Below are positions 8,735-41,880 of a stretch of 64,000 bases of DNA, piece after piece. A program made the translations under genes and the position numbers. The stretch covers positions 1 to 64,000 of the forward strand of contig CANKUB010000001.1 of assembly GCA_947486575.1 (NCBI GenBank), in the 5' to 3' direction. The stretch's first letter is position 1; each line of letters begins with the position of its first letter. The notes beneath the pieces were generated by a model. The model was not told the origin of the DNA, searched no databases, and saw only the letters and a list, made by a program, of their open reading frames with translations. The DNA is from Betaproteobacteria bacterium. GTDB taxonomy: Bacteria; Pseudomonadota; Gammaproteobacteria; Burkholderiales; SG8-41.

Positions 8735-8756
8735 CCAAGAAGCAGGGCGGAGAAAA

Positions 8757-9716
8757 ATGTTTAAAAACAAATACTTACTTATAGCAGCTGGAATGGCGCT
8801 GAGCGCTGGCGTGGCGGCACAGAATTACCCCACCAAACCCATCCGCCTGATCGTTGCCTTCGCGCCCGGCGGTGCCACCGACACCTTTGCACGCATCACT
8901 GCCGCCGAACTCACGCGCACGCTGGGCCAGCAGGTCATTGTCGAGAACCGTCCCGGTGCGGGCACCACCATCGCGGCGGAATTTGTGGCGAAGTCGGTGG
9001 CGGACGGTTACACGCTGCTGCTTACCGATCTCTCGACGCATGCCATCATGCCGTCGCTCTACAACAAACTCGCCTTCAATCATGCGCGCGATCTTATCGC
9101 CGTGGCTCCGGTGTCGGCCTCGCCGCTGCTGATGGCAGCGCACCCTTCGCTGGGCGTGAAGAACGCGAAAGAACTGATCGCGCTGGCGAAGAAAAACCCC
9201 GGCATCACCTGCGGTAACTCCGGCGCAGGCACCGTAACGCATCTGGCCGCGGAAAAATTCCGCGCGCGCGCGGGCATTGATTTGACATCCGTGAACTACA
9301 AGGGCGGCACCACCTCCACCGTATCGTTGATGACGGGTGAGCTGTCGCTGATCGTCAACACCATCCCTGCCGCGCTCGAACATGTGAAAAGCAAAAGGCT
9401 TGTGGCGGTTGGCATCACCGCCGACAAGCGCGCCACCGCGCTGCCCGACATCGCCGCGCTGGGCGAAACGGTGAAAGGCGTCGATGCCGCAGTGATCGCA
9501 GGCGTGCTTGCGCCTGCCAACACCCCGCGCGCAGTGATCGAGCGGCTGAATGCCGAGTTCGCCAAGGCAGTGGATGCGCCCAAGGCGAAGGAGAGTTTTC
9601 TGGTGAATGCCGCTGAGGCGCTGAAACAGACGCCGGAGATGATGCAGAAGGCTATGGAGCAGGATGCGCGGACTTGGGCAGAGGTGGTGCGGGTAACGGG
9701 TGTGAAACTGAATTGA
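8757..9716 (+). CDS. Bug/TctC-family solute-binding protein
   Basis: MFKNKYLLIAAGMALSAGVAAQNYPTKPIRLIVAFAPGGATD. Confidence 0.85.
   Translation: MFKNKYLLIAAGMALSAGVAAQNYPTKPIRLIVAFAPGGATDTFARITAAELTRTLGQQVIVENRPGAGTTIAAEFVAKSVADGYTLLLTDLSTHAIMPSLYNKLAFNHARDLIAVAPVSASPLLMAAHPSLGVKNAKELIALAKKNPGITCGNSGAGTVTHLAAEKFRARAGIDLTSVNYKGGTTSTVSLMTGELSLIVNTIPAALEHVKSKRLVAVGITADKRATALPDIAALGETVKGVDAAVIAGVLAPANTPRAVIERLNAEFAKAVDAPKAKESFLVNAAEALKQTPEMMQKAMEQDARTWAEVVRVTGVKLN
8765..8777 (+). repeat. Dispersed AT-patch motif: AAACAAATACTTA
   Basis: AATGTTTAAAAACAAATACTTA overlapping start codon of Bug gene. Confidence 0.75.
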
Positions 9717-13636: not shown

Positions 13637-14580
13637 TTGTTGCCCTTGCAGGCGGCGTAGGCGGGGCGAAACTCGCCGTGGGGCTTGCCGCTGTGCTGCC
13701 ACCCGGTGAACTCGCCATTGTTGTGAACACAGGCGATGATTTCGAGCACTTGGGTTTTACGATCTGCCCGGATCTCGATACGGTGATGTATACACTGGCG
13801 GGCGTAAACAACACTCGCACAGGCTGGGGCCGCGCGAGCGAAGGCTGGCGCTTCATGGCGGAAATGAAGCGCCTGGGCAGCCCGGATTGGTTTCAATTGG
13901 GCGACCGTGATCTCGCTGTGCATGTGCTGCGACGCGAAGCATTGCTGCGAGGTGAGCCTTTATCGAAAATCACGCAGTATCTTGCAGCACGCTTCGGCAT
14001 CCGCCACGCCATTCTGCCGATGAGCGACACGCCGGTACGCACGCACGTGAAAACGACAGCTGGCGAGATGGCCTTTCAGGATTACTTCGTGCGGCTGCGT
14101 TGTGCGCCACAGGTGACGGGTTTTCGCTACACGGGCGCGCGCATTGCGCGCGTGCCGGGCGCGCTCGCACAGATACTGCGCGGCCGCGTGGATGCGGTGG
14201 TGCTGTGTCCGTCGAATCCCTTTGTCAGCATCGCGCCGATATTCAGTGTGCCCGCCATACGCGTCTGGTTGCGCGAACGCGACTTCCCGGTGATTGCGGT
14301 CTCACCGATCATCGGCGGTGCCGCGGTTAAGGGCCCGGCGGCGAAGATGATGCGGGAGCTGGGCTTAAAATCGGAAGCGCTGGAAGTGGCGCGACACTAC
14401 GGCAGCGCGGTAGATTGCTGGGTGATCGACCAGCAGGATGCCCGCTCAGCCAGCGCGATTGAGCGCCTGGGTAAGCGGGTTATGGTGGCCGACACACTGA
14501 TGACCAACCGCCGCAAGAGCGCTGCGCTGGCCCGAAAAGCGATTGAAATTGCACAGAATTTCTCAAAGAATAATGTTTAA
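13633..14580 (+). CDS. cofD: 2-phospho-L-lactate (or related) transferase
   Basis: MIVALAGGVGGAKLAVGLAAVLPPGELAIVVNTGDDFEHLGFTICPDLDTVMYTLAG. Confidence 0.92.
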   Translation: MIVALAGGVGGAKLAVGLAAVLPPGELAIVVNTGDDFEHLGFTICPDLDTVMYTLAGVNNTRTGWGRASEGWRFMAEMKRLGSPDWFQLGDRDLAVHVLRREALLRGEPLSKITQYLAARFGIRHAILPMSDTPVRTHVKTTAGEMAFQDYFVRLRCAPQVTGFRYTGARIARVPGALAQILRGRVDAVVLCPSNPFVSIAPIFSVPAIRVWLRERDFPVIAVSPIIGGAAVKGPAAKMMRELGLKSEALEVARHYGSAVDCWVIDQQDARSASAIERLGKRVMVADTLMTNRRKSAALARKAIEIAQNFSKNNV

Positions 14581-15271
14581 AAACAAATGCTTATGGGTGA
14601 TTGTGCCGCATCGCGGCGTGAACGCTGGCAAATCGCGCTTGTCTTCAGTGCTCAATGAAATCGCTCGCGGCAAGCTCAATCGCTGGTTGCTCGCGCGCAC
14701 CCTGAAGGTGGTGAGCAGCTGGCTGGGCAATGCGCAATGCTGCATGGTGGTCAGTCCGTGCGAAGTCACACTCGCGCTGGCGCGTAAAGCAGGCGCCGTA
14801 GCGTTATCTGAACAGGCATCCACTGTGGAATTAAATGACGCGCTATCGCAGGCGGCGACGCACGCGGCTACGTTAGGTGCCCAACGCTTGCTTATTCTAC
14901 CGTGCGATTTGCCGCGACTGGATGTTGCGGCGTTGGAGGCTATGCAGACAGCGGCGGCGTTGGGTACCTTGGGGACGGAAATGGTGATCGCGCCCGATCG
15001 GCATTTTGACGGCACCAATGCGCTGCTGGTGGATGCCAGCGTGCGAAAGTTCGCGTTTGGCAAAAACAGTCTTGCGCGGCACATCGCGCAAAGTGACGCG
15101 CGCAGGGTACGCAGCTTTCCCTGCCTCAATACGGCGCTGGCGTTTGACCTCGACACGGCGGAAGACTTTGCAGAATGGACCAGTAGCGATGACGTGCCGC
15201 AGGAATTTCTGGCGACGTTGCCGCGCAATGCGATACGTGCGACGGATGTCATAACATCGCGCAACAAATAA
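14573..15271 (+). CDS. cofC: 2-phospho-L-lactate (or related) guanylyltransferase
   Basis: LWVIVPHRGVNAGKSRLSSVL..., LILPCDLPRLD; overlaps end of cofD. Confidence 0.85.
   Translation: MFKNKCLWVIVPHRGVNAGKSRLSSVLNEIARGKLNRWLLARTLKVVSSWLGNAQCCMVVSPCEVTLALARKAGAVALSEQASTVELNDALSQAATHAATLGAQRLLILPCDLPRLDVAALEAMQTAAALGTLGTEMVIAPDRHFDGTNALLVDASVRKFAFGKNSLARHIAQSDARRVRSFPCLNTALAFDLDTAEDFAEWTSSDDVPQEFLATLPRNAIRATDVITSRNK
14581..14593 (+). repeat. Dispersed AT-patch motif: AAACAAATGCTTA
   Basis: AATGTTTAAAAACAAATGCTTA spanning cofD stop / cofC start. Confidence 0.75.
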
Positions 15272-27024: not shown

Positions 27025-27127
27025 GTAGGGCGGAAAAGCGCAGCGCCTTCCGCCATCGGCCATCGGCCATCGGCGTATGCGATATCGCAACAGTTTTTGC
27101 GGAAGGCGCTACGCTTTTCCGCCCTAC
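27025..27127. repeat. Large inverted repeat with 29-nt arms (27025-27053 / 27099-27127)
   Basis: GTAGGGCGGAAAAGCGCAGCGCCTTCCGC versus reverse complement of GCGGAAGGCGCTACGCTTTTCCGCCCTAC: 28/29 match; loop has short CCATCGG-type tandem units. Confidence 0.85.
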
Positions 27128-28664: not shown

Positions 28665-28843
28665 GGTTCCCCCGCCTGTGCCGTCAGGCCCGTTTCTTGA
28701 ACCAAAGGTTCAAGGGGTCGCCTTCCGGATTCCATTAGGTTCGTCCACGTGGGACGCTCACACCGGTATCACTAAAGTCAGCAACCGTTTAATGCATATT
28801 GGCTCAAAGAAATTAAGGCCTTAACGAACACCGCAGGGGAATT
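28665..28843 (-). ncRNA. ssrS: 6S RNA
   Basis: Minus strand contains GAGCCAATATGCAT, CCCTTGAACCTTTGGTTCAAG and ACGGGCCTGACGGCACAGGCGGGGG; terminal stem TTCCCCTGC/GCGGGGGAA closes; located next to zapA. Ends approximate. Confidence 0.88.
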
Positions 28844-29544: not shown

Positions 29545-29790
29545 CGCACGATAGCGATACAGGGTGCTGACGGCCTTTAAGGGCCGCCAGTTAAACGGGA
29601 AACCGGTGCGAGAAAAGTGTTTGTAAAACAAATACTTACATCTCAAAGCCGGTGCTGCCCCCGCAACGGTTGGTGAAAGCGGTGCTGAAGTCCGGCATCG
29701 CGGCGGCGCGTCATAAAGCCACTGTGAGCTTTGCTCATGGGAAGGCGGCGCGCTCCGTTCACGAGCCCGTATACCGGCCCGTATCGACTG
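29545..29790 (+). promoter_or_regulatory. Cobalamin riboswitch upstream of btuB-like gene
   Basis: GGGTGCTGACGGCC, GGGAAACCGGTGCG, CCGGTGCTGCCCCCGCAACGGT, AAGCCACTG, GGGAAGGC, CGAGCCCGTATACCGGCC in canonical order; boundaries approximate. Confidence 0.87.
29626..29638 (+). repeat. Dispersed AT-patch motif: AAACAAATACTTA
   Basis: Inside cobalamin riboswitch; 3' arm of hairpin 29615-29637. Confidence 0.75.
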
Positions 29791-29937
29791 GATGGAAATG
29801 CTGCGGGGATGCAGCGTGCCGGATTCTCGCGCGGCTGCGTTCTGCTGTGCGGTGTCGTCATGACAATTCCCCGTGGTGCTTCCGATGCGTATTTGCGCGC
29901 GGCGGGCGCGCTCCATTATTTGGGGAATTCAGAAATC

Positions 29938-31926
29938 ATGAGGACTTCTATACCTGTTCTACCATTGGTTACCGCAGTTCAGGCGGCGCTTTTGTTTAAT
30001 GCTTCGGCGCGCGCGGCAGATGTGCCGGTTGCGGTTGGGCCACCCGTTACGGTAACTGCCACGCGCTTTGATGACACGTCAGCGCGGTATCCGATTGGCG
30101 TCACCGTTATCACCGCGCAGGATATTGCGCGCAGTACGGCATCGACCGTGCCGCAATTGCTGCAATCTCTGGCGGGCATACGCACGCGCGATTTGTCGGG
30201 CTCGCCCAATGCTCAGGTAGACATGCGTGGATTTGGGATTTTTGGCGATCAAAATACACTGGTTCTGCTCGATGGCGTGCGCATAAGCGAACACGAGCAA
30301 CTCACCGTCAACTGGTCGGCGATTCCACTGGATTCCATCGAACGCATAGAGATCTTGCGTGGCAGCGGTGCGGTGCTATACGGAAGCGGCGCTACCGGCG
30401 GCACTATCAATATCATTACCAGGGCACCGCAGCGAAATTCGCGATCAGCCACGCTAGGTGGCATGGCCGGTAGTCATAACACACGCGAATTAAGGCTGAG
30501 CGGGAATCTGGCGGGCGACAATGCCGGCGCGCGGCTCAACGCCACGCATTATGAGAGCAACAATTACCGCGATAACAATCGCGTACGCATCGACAACGCG
30601 CAGGCGGATTTTCGCTGGGGCGGGACCGCGAGTTCGCTGGTACTCAAGCTTGGCGCGGACGAGCAGCGTAACGGACTCCCCGGCGCGATTGGCGAAGCGC
30701 AAATCGCGGCCAATCGCAAACAAGCGGCTACGCCGAATGACGTTGCCACCCAGCGCGGCGGCTATGCCAATCTAAGCGGGCAGCACAAGTTTGATTTCGG
30801 TGAATTTGCTACCAGTTTTGGTTACCGCGAAAAGGACTCCACGTCGTCGTTTTTCGTCGGAACGCCTTTCCGCAACAATGTCGACTCCCACGTTACCGTG
30901 TGGACGGCATCGCCGCGTGTAAAGCTTAAACCGCGCTTCGGTTCCTGGGACAATAATCTTGTGCTGGGCATGGATTTCGAAGACTGGAAATTCGACGCCA
31001 ACGCCGGCCCGTCTGTTGTCGGCCGACCGCAAGCCACCCAGCGCAGCGAGGCGCTGTATGCGCAACACAGCATGGCCTTCGCCACCCAAACCACGGTGGC
31101 GCTGGGCGCTCGTGGGCAACGCCTGCGCTATGACGTTACCGATGCGGCGAATCCCGCAGCGACGGGCAATCGCAGCCGCACGCTTAATGCGTGGGACATC
31201 GCGCTGCGGCAATCTGTTGTGCCTGGTATCAACGTCTACGGGAAATTTGGCCGGAGTTTTCGCGTGCCCAACGTGAACGACAACTACAATCTGTTTGCGG
31301 CATCGGTCACGCTGCTCGAACCGCAAACAGCGCGGGATGCAGAATTCGGGGTCGACGGCAATTTGGGCCCCGTTCGGTATCGTGCAGCGGCCTATCGCAT
31401 TGAACTACGGAACGAGATCTTCTTTGACCCGCTTACCTTCAGCAACCGCAATCTGCAGCCCACGCGGCGGCAAGGTGCTGAGCTTGAAGCACGCTGGCAA
31501 GTCAATCCCGCGGTAGAGGTGCATGCCAACTACACCTATGTAGATGCCCGATTCCGCGAAGGTAATTTCGGCGGCGTTTCCATTGCGGGTAACGCCGTGC
31601 CGCTGGTACCCCGGCACGCGCTCAACGCGGGGCTCGGCTGGGCCATCTTGGGAAAAGCGCGCGCCGATCTTGATGTCCGCCACATAGGCAGCAGTCCATT
31701 TGACGCCGACGAAACCAATACCTTCGGACGAAAAATGCCCGCCTATACCGTTGCCGACTTCAAGTTGAGCGTGCGCCGCGGCGGCTGGCAGGTCAACGCC
31801 GGTGTGCGCAATCTACTGAACGAGAAGTATTTCAGCTACGGCGTGTTTACAGGGTTCCCGACCTACGCGGCGCTGCCTGCGGCAGAACGCACGCTGTTTG
31901 TGTCGGGCCAGTATCAGTTTCAATAG
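29938..31926 (+). CDS. btuB: TonB-dependent receptor, BtuB-like
   Basis: Plug domain VTVTATRFDDTSARYPIGVTVITAQDIARS, LLDGVRISEHEQLTVNWSAIPLDSIERIEILRGSGAVLYGSGATGGTINIITR; C-terminal F; riboswitch upstream. Confidence 0.85.
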   Translation: MRTSIPVLPLVTAVQAALLFNASARAADVPVAVGPPVTVTATRFDDTSARYPIGVTVITAQDIARSTASTVPQLLQSLAGIRTRDLSGSPNAQVDMRGFGIFGDQNTLVLLDGVRISEHEQLTVNWSAIPLDSIERIEILRGSGAVLYGSGATGGTINIITRAPQRNSRSATLGGMAGSHNTRELRLSGNLAGDNAGARLNATHYESNNYRDNNRVRIDNAQADFRWGGTASSLVLKLGADEQRNGLPGAIGEAQIAANRKQAATPNDVATQRGGYANLSGQHKFDFGEFATSFGYREKDSTSSFFVGTPFRNNVDSHVTVWTASPRVKLKPRFGSWDNNLVLGMDFEDWKFDANAGPSVVGRPQATQRSEALYAQHSMAFATQTTVALGARGQRLRYDVTDAANPAATGNRSRTLNAWDIALRQSVVPGINVYGKFGRSFRVPNVNDNYNLFAASVTLLEPQTARDAEFGVDGNLGPVRYRAAAYRIELRNEIFFDPLTFSNRNLQPTRRQGAELEARWQVNPAVEVHANYTYVDARFREGNFGGVSIAGNAVPLVPRHALNAGLGWAILGKARADLDVRHIGSSPFDADETNTFGRKMPAYTVADFKLSVRRGGWQVNAGVRNLLNEKYFSYGVFTGFPTYAALPAAERTLFVSGQYQFQ

Positions 31927-40681: not shown

Positions 40682-41880
40682 TGTCCCGCTATCTGACCGT
40701 GCTGCTGGGCGCGCTGGGGCTGATGCTGGCGCTGATCCTCGCGCTGAATTTGATGCTCGGTGATCGCGGGCTGGGTAATCTGCAATCCACGCGCGAGGCA
40801 TCAAAGTGGCAACAGGCGACGCGCGGCGTCACGTACGCGCCGCCGGTCGGCCACACTGGGCCGTTTAAAGTGCTGCGGCTGGCAGATCGCTTGCCGGAGA
40901 TCAACGCAGTGGTGCTGGGTTCATCAACGCTGATGGGCGTTACGCAAGCGTTGCTGCCGGCCGATTGGCGCACGTACAATTTGACTGTAACGGGTAACGC
41001 CACCGCGAGCATTGCCGGTGAAGCGCGTTACATTGAGCAGCATTTTTCAGATCAGGTGCGCTGGATGCTTGCCGGGCTGGATTGGTCGGTTGGTATGATC
41101 TATCAGCCAGGTGCTGTGGGCGTCGTTGATTTGTCGCCGCAGGCGGTGGATCGTGCGTATAGCGAAAACCCGGTGCCGCTGCGTAAACGCCTGGAAGACG
41201 CGCTGTCATGGCCGCGCGTGTCGAACCTTGCTGGCATTGTCACAGCAGCGTTTATAAAAATTAATATAATCAATAACTTACAACATACGTTTTTTGACGT
41301 CGGCAGCGCGGAATACCGCTGTGCTGATAGTACCGGTAGTTTCGTCGCACGGGATTTTGATGTGATTAATCGCGGGTTGTGCCGAGGCTATCGTTACGAT
41401 GGCAGCTGGACTTTCGCCAATGACAGTCGGCTTACTCCGGCGCAAGCTGCAACGCTGTCAATCGCAGCCGCCGCACCCAGTTCAAAATATACCCGGCTAT
41501 TGTGCGCGATGCAGGGCGAACCTAACGCCGACTATCTGCAACACTTGGGCGAAACCGTGCAACGTTTTGCTGCCAAGGGCGGGCACATGATTTTTATGTT
41601 GCCTGCGTTAGCGCCGGGCATGGAAGCCACGTTGCGCAAAATGCCGCACTGGGCCGCGTGCCTTGATCGCACAAAAGCCACGCTCAACGCTTGGGCGCGT
41701 CGCTATCACGTAAACATTATTGATGCGGGCGCGTCAGAGCGTTACGGTTGTGTGGCCGCTGAATTCTCTGATGAGCATCATGCGTATCCTGAATGCAACC
41801 AGCGCGTGTTGCAGCGGTTTTTTCGGGATGTCGATGCCGGACTGGTGGGGACTGGCCTGTACCTGCCGGGGGCTGCATGA
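40681..41880 (+). CDS. SGNH-like (AlgJ/DltD-type) hypothetical protein, paralog B
   Basis: INAVVLGSSTLMGVTQALLPADWRTYNLTVTGNA, GLDWSVGMIYQPGA, DEHHAYPECNQRVLQRFFRD parallels paralog A. Confidence 0.65.
   Translation: MSRYLTVLLGALGLMLALILALNLMLGDRGLGNLQSTREASKWQQATRGVTYAPPVGHTGPFKVLRLADRLPEINAVVLGSSTLMGVTQALLPADWRTYNLTVTGNATASIAGEARYIEQHFSDQVRWMLAGLDWSVGMIYQPGAVGVVDLSPQAVDRAYSENPVPLRKRLEDALSWPRVSNLAGIVTAAFIKINIINNLQHTFFDVGSAEYRCADSTGSFVARDFDVINRGLCRGYRYDGSWTFANDSRLTPAQAATLSIAAAAPSSKYTRLLCAMQGEPNADYLQHLGETVQRFAAKGGHMIFMLPALAPGMEATLRKMPHWAACLDRTKATLNAWARRYHVNIIDAGASERYGCVAAEFSDEHHAYPECNQRVLQRFFRDVDAGLVGTGLYLPGAA
41268..41280 (+). repeat. Dispersed AT-patch motif: AATCAATAACTTA
   Basis: Inside SGNH-like paralog B, preceded by ATAAAAATTAATAT. 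Confidence 0.75.

Follow-up and report, generated by a model that had tools for sequence, protein, structure and literature searches.

The question raised by this locus is why the core of a cobalamin riboswitch contains a copy of a motif that is dispersed through the rest of the genome, and how the RNA accommodates this copy. The locus lies in a 64,000-nt stretch of betaproteobacterial DNA (the window). A sequence-only reading of the window had described about 35 extra nucleotides in the riboswitch core, which were considered to form an extra stem-loop. The Rfam alignment places 35 nt as an insertion between positions 58 and 59 of model RF00174, and all of the coordinates given for the element hold, including the arms, AAA loop, and single G-U pair of the 10-bp inner helix formed by AAGUGUUUGU and ACAAAUACUU (Table 1). 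An outer 4-bp GAGA/UCUC helix, which was absent from the earlier description, closes the insert. By standard numbering, the insertion site is the tip of P4 (the L4 T-loop), the first hairpin after P3, and not L5.

Table 1. Features of the riboswitch locus (coordinates refer to the window)
Feature	Position	Strand	Basis
Cobalamin riboswitch aptamer (RF00174)	29545-29796	+	cmscan, 73.4 bits, gathering threshold 31.5, full model 1-189
P4 helix, 5' strand ACCGG	29602-29606	+	Rfam alignment; compensatory change at two pairs among congeners
35-nt L4 insert, between UGC and AA of the T-loop	29610-29644	+	Rfam insertion; orthologous insert in 12/13 other congeners
Outer insert helix, 5' strand GAGA	29610-29613	+	Pairs with UCUC 29641-29644; fold; 2/3 tested pairs show two-sided changes between species
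Inner hairpin, 5' arm AAGUGUUUGU (DNA AAGTGTTTGT)	29615-29624	+	Fold; covariation; complement arm, rare among other motif copies
Dispersed-motif copy TGTAAAACAAATACTTA	29622-29638	+	Repeat family D1; genome-wide counts; logo of 81 copies
Inner hairpin, loop AAA	29625-29627	+	Sequence
Inner hairpin, 3' arm ACAAAUACUU (DNA ACAAATACTT)	29628-29637	+	Fold; covariation
Outer insert helix, 3' strand UCUC (DNA TCTC)	29641-29644	+	Fold; covariation
P4 helix, 3' strand CCGGU	29649-29653	+	Rfam alignment; compensatory change in congeners
P5/L5 UGCCCCCGCA, kissing-loop side of the aptamer, unchanged	29656-29665	+	Rfam alignment
GCTGC-GGGGAT-GCAGC hairpin, candidate P13 with L13 GGGG	29800-29815	+	Sequence; inferred
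btuB-like TonB-dependent receptor gene	29938-31926	+	Pfam Plug and TonB_dep_Rec_b-barrel; start codon inferred

The assignment to RF00174 is clear because the covariance-model score exceeds the gathering threshold across the whole model (73.4 vs. 31.5 bits), and this is the only cobalamin riboswitch in the genome. L4 contacts L6 through its T-loop, and the kissing interaction joins L5 to L13 in the expression platform (PMC10907184). A direct effect of the insert on the kissing loop is thus not supported: the insert is in L4, and both kissing partners are present. The CCCC of L5 is complementary to the GGGG loop of the hairpin at 29800-29815; a kissing loop is possible as far as complementarity goes. 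The RNA resembles RF00174 riboswitches of the L5-L13 class in its full-length match, four-way junction, B12 box, L5 CCCC, candidate L13 GGGG, and place upstream of a TonB-dependent receptor gene. However, it differs in its 35-nt L4 hairpin, which is built from a motif repeated across the genome. We concluded that, apart from the unusual guest in its L4, this riboswitch is typical of its family. The receptor gene directly downstream is the predicted target of its control. In the segment between them, AATTCCCC is able to pair with GGGGAATT (29865-29872 and 29922-29929, plus strand); GGGGAATT overlaps what is probably the ribosome-binding site of the receptor gene, and an expression-platform switch is possible. 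Upstream of the riboswitch, a 6S RNA gene (28665-28842, minus strand) lies between an EVE-domain gene and zapA, and a 29-nt inverted repeat (27025-27127; 97% complementary, arms 45 nt apart) lies near the boundary of two amidohydrolase-like genes, named from their ORF sequences.

The insert hairpin has a folding energy of -12.5 kcal/mol. Since this corresponds to a z-score of -4.8 and 0/200 shuffles were equally stable, a hairpin arising by chance is ruled out, and the extra stem-loop proposed earlier stands. In the minimum-energy fold of the domain, P3 and P4 form alongside it. A cobalamin riboswitch is present in all 14 congeneric genomes, and comparing these riboswitches, much as the sequence-only reading had proposed, revealed the motif hairpin with compensatory changes in L4 of 13/14. 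The exception is G009, which has no genome-wide motif and in which L4 is short, with a sequence unrelated to the motif. In the alignment of the 13 inserts, 96% of cells are paired and six pairs are changed on both sides, which was matched by 0/500 shuffles; by the tree, some of these six changes are shared events (G001, G007, and G008 group together), and the inner pairing is not complete in every species, column pair 29:39, for example, being broken in three. These compensatory changes are consistent with the proposal that the insert leaves the fold intact.

Outside the genus, L4 is variable. Other genera of the family have 0-97 extra nt of unrelated sequence in L4, 14 genomes of other families have 0-24, and several relatives have no L4 extension. 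The view that this site is otherwise spanned by a few nucleotides accordingly stands in part only: the 35-nt insert is real; however, a long insert is not abnormal for the family. Among related genera, L4 inserts as long as this one or longer are common and unrelated in sequence, a circumstance that the sequence-only reading had set against itself, whereas within the genus the insert sequence is conserved and tracks the genome-wide motif. In several related genera, the L4 insert contains arrays of the TCAATCC heptamer, which is dispersed in the same genomes (137 copies in G015, 40 in G016, and 30 in G024; control, 0). Since L4 inserts are common, range from 0 to 97 nt, and are unrelated in sequence, L4 is a permissive site; it has been host to at least two different dispersed repeats. 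The sister-genus genome G018, with 216 motif copies, has a diverged motif-like insert in L4. When 84,980 species genomes were scanned for a motif copy in L4, the only match outside the genus was in Streptomyces; it lacks a B12 box and was rejected as chance. A 7-mer repeat flagged in L4 of G006 was also rejected because it falls at the edge of P4. No motif copy was found in RNase P RNA of the genus, examined as a possible further RNA host.

The claim that the insert contains a copy of the dispersed motif was borne out for the 3' arm of the hairpin: ACAAATACTTA occurs 121 times exactly in the genome (63/58 by strand), and chance is ruled out because the reversed pattern occurs once. Pieces of the motif are the top-ranked over-represented 10-mers in the 464 kb examined. 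The motif, with a consensus drawn from 81 copies, is approximately 16-30 bp long and lineage-specific. Of these 81 copies, 66 fall between genes or no more than 40 nt from the end of a gene, vs. 17% expected; these fractions are approximate because gene limits were taken from a simple purpose-made caller. The exact palindromic form of the motif is found in 5/13 riboswitch copies vs. 21/2766 exact copies elsewhere (about 0.8%), and, thus, the complementary arm and outer clamp are special to the RNA context. A promoter-like or gene-strand-linked role was rejected because the copies show no orientation preference relative to genes, and a Chi- or KOPS-like skew, judged by the strand split of the copies, because this is no stronger than 46/35. 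Two copies (8751-8777 and 14567-14593, plus strand) overlap start codons (8762 and 14578; ATG TTT AAA AAC AAA ...) and encode the N terminus MFKNK(Y/C)L, and their orthologous copies are kept in congeners. A motif-like copy at 41254-41280 (plus strand) lies in a coding region in which G010 and G013 have GC-rich codons of equal length, apparently an in-frame gain of the motif without an indel.

The copies are spaced more evenly than expected. In G000, the coefficient of variation of spacing is 0.73 vs. 0.95 under a uniform null (P 0.0035) and 1.10 under an intergenic null (0/2000), and gaps shorter than 1 kb make up 2.7% vs. 24% and 16% expected. Over-even spacing is also found in G006, G010, and G001, giving four genomes in all. 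Among the congeners, copy number ranges between 0 and 339, and copies occupy the same orthologous places in the same orientations across species. G006 has a dialect of its own, with 417 ATCAAAT-type (AAATCAAATASTTA) vs. 12 AACAAAT-type copies, the reverse of all other motif-bearing congeners. At orthologous sites, G006 has T where its relatives have A in 7/8 comparable cases, while one retains the old dialect, a point against the reading favoured below. Since G006 nests among A-dialect species in the tree, the switch happened in place. The riboswitch copy of G006 also carries the T dialect; since the dialect position falls in the hairpin loop, it provides a single base of evidence.

DNA uptake sequences, namely, DUS of Neisseriaceae and USS of Pasteurellaceae, occur in dialects, occupy permissive positions, and are relatively evenly distributed, features explained by molecular drive (PMC3630211, PMC7811141). 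As in DUS and USS (PMC3630211, PMC7811141), the present motif is the most over-represented word, strand-symmetric, with dialects, located at permissive sites, and fairly even, and its bearers have competence genes. It shares with DUS/USS top rank on both strands, dialects that change in place, and over-even spacing in four genomes. However, it is longer, AT-rich, strongly intergenic, belongs to another lineage, and is known here from sequence alone; furthermore, its density is about one per 5.5 kb (copies matching at 14 of 16 positions), in contrast to about one per kb for DUS/USS. We did not assign the motif to the DUS class, since the density differs and an uptake role is putative, although by analogy DUS appears to be what it works most like. 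ComEC and DprA were detected in 13/13 motif-bearing congeners. In motif-free G009, which is a long branch, the smallest genome of the genus, and rated 97% complete, neither ComEC nor DprA was detected, a joint absence that represents one congener and one event in a comparison of these two genes. Across 60 relatives, the association between the motif and ComEC was not significant (p 0.09).

Short repeats lodge in structured RNAs in other bacteria, such as Rickettsia palindromic elements and the STRR repeats in cyanobacterial RNase P RNA. The L4 insert is similar in that a structured RNA houses, in one of its variable loops, a repeat of the same genome, and with such precedents for short repeats in RNA genes, a mobile repeat of the REP, MITE, or RPE-like palindromic type may have jumped into L4. 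The hundreds of near-identical copies, their varying number between species, and the TCAATCC arrays, a second repeat dispersed in related genera and present in their L4, fit this explanation. However, the present motif differs from Rickettsia elements and STRR repeats in evolving in place, being mostly non-palindromic, and being absent from RNase P RNA in the genus. Exact palindromes make up just 21/2766 copies outside the riboswitch, where a palindromic element would be expected to retain them, and copies keep their orthologous sites and orientations. An empty-site comparison, limited to a few sites, found orthologous sites mostly filled, and two lineage-restricted copies (41265 and G001 77668) without a length change relative to relatives. 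Moreover, transposition would not produce an in-place dialect switch or over-even spacing, and we regard a mobile origin as quite improbable.

Alternatively, the hairpin may function at the RNA level, as an extension of P4 by which the riboswitch is tuned, with its likeness to the dispersed motif being secondary. Its retention in 13/14 congeners with compensatory changes agrees with this, as do the P4 extensions common in the family; however, from one genus to another the L4 extensions are unrelated in sequence and length, they are missing from several relatives, and the motif sequence is kept down to its dialect, which makes tuning as the primary role unlikely. More room is left for the motif being recognized by an abundant DNA-binding protein of the chromosome, with a nucleoid or segregation function, and the riboswitch copy being one of the sites bound. 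Strand symmetry, intergenic location, positional conservation, and dialects are all compatible with coevolution with such a protein. Nevertheless, it does not explain the joint absence of the motif, ComEC, and DprA in G009, and most proteins of this kind would not obviously be expected to produce even spacing; we consider it somewhat unlikely.

The insert is a motif copy, which probably settled in permissive L4 and was closed into a hairpin such that the aptamer still folds, the motif being similar to an uptake signal. With its strand symmetry, mostly intergenic and over-even distribution, conserved positions, and dialects, the motif appears to evolve as an uptake signal does. With less certainty, we speculate that it is a DNA uptake signal kept by biased natural transformation (molecular drive) and that it would accumulate at permissive places, the L4 loop of the riboswitch among them. 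Selection probably acted on the pairing 5' arm and GAGA/UCUC clamp because they fold the AT-rich motif into a closed hairpin above P4. Most simply, the closed guest helix would not obstruct P4, the junction, or the UGC...AA of the T-loop; the L4 T-loop, which docks on L6, and the four-way junction would still fold, and cobalamin sensing would stay normal. The broader scenario, in which a betaproteobacterial lineage outside Neisseriaceae has its own uptake sequence with dialects, drive put and kept a copy in an aptamer, and the RNA came to tolerate it by evolving a closing hairpin, is a serious possibility that falls a little short of probable.

The dialect-forming dispersed motif is more interesting than the riboswitch itself. 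A search of the open literature found no description of the motif or of repeats in riboswitch L4. The locus may be a clean natural example of an encounter between a structured RNA and a DNA motif that is selfish or maintained by drive: the switch in dialect would represent a DNA-level force inside an aptamer and the compensatory arm the RNA-level answer. L4 also emerges as a site of cobalamin riboswitches at which length is tolerated and the resident dispersed repeat differs from genus to genus. Should the motif prove to be an uptake signal, it would represent a further independent uptake-sequence lineage, and the motif-free sister lacking the competence genes provides a built-in contrast; the origin and change of uptake specificity thereby become testable. 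The lineage is uncultured and apparently from freshwater, and metagenome-assembled genomes of the genus have been deposited as Bordetella parapertussis, apparently mislabelled.
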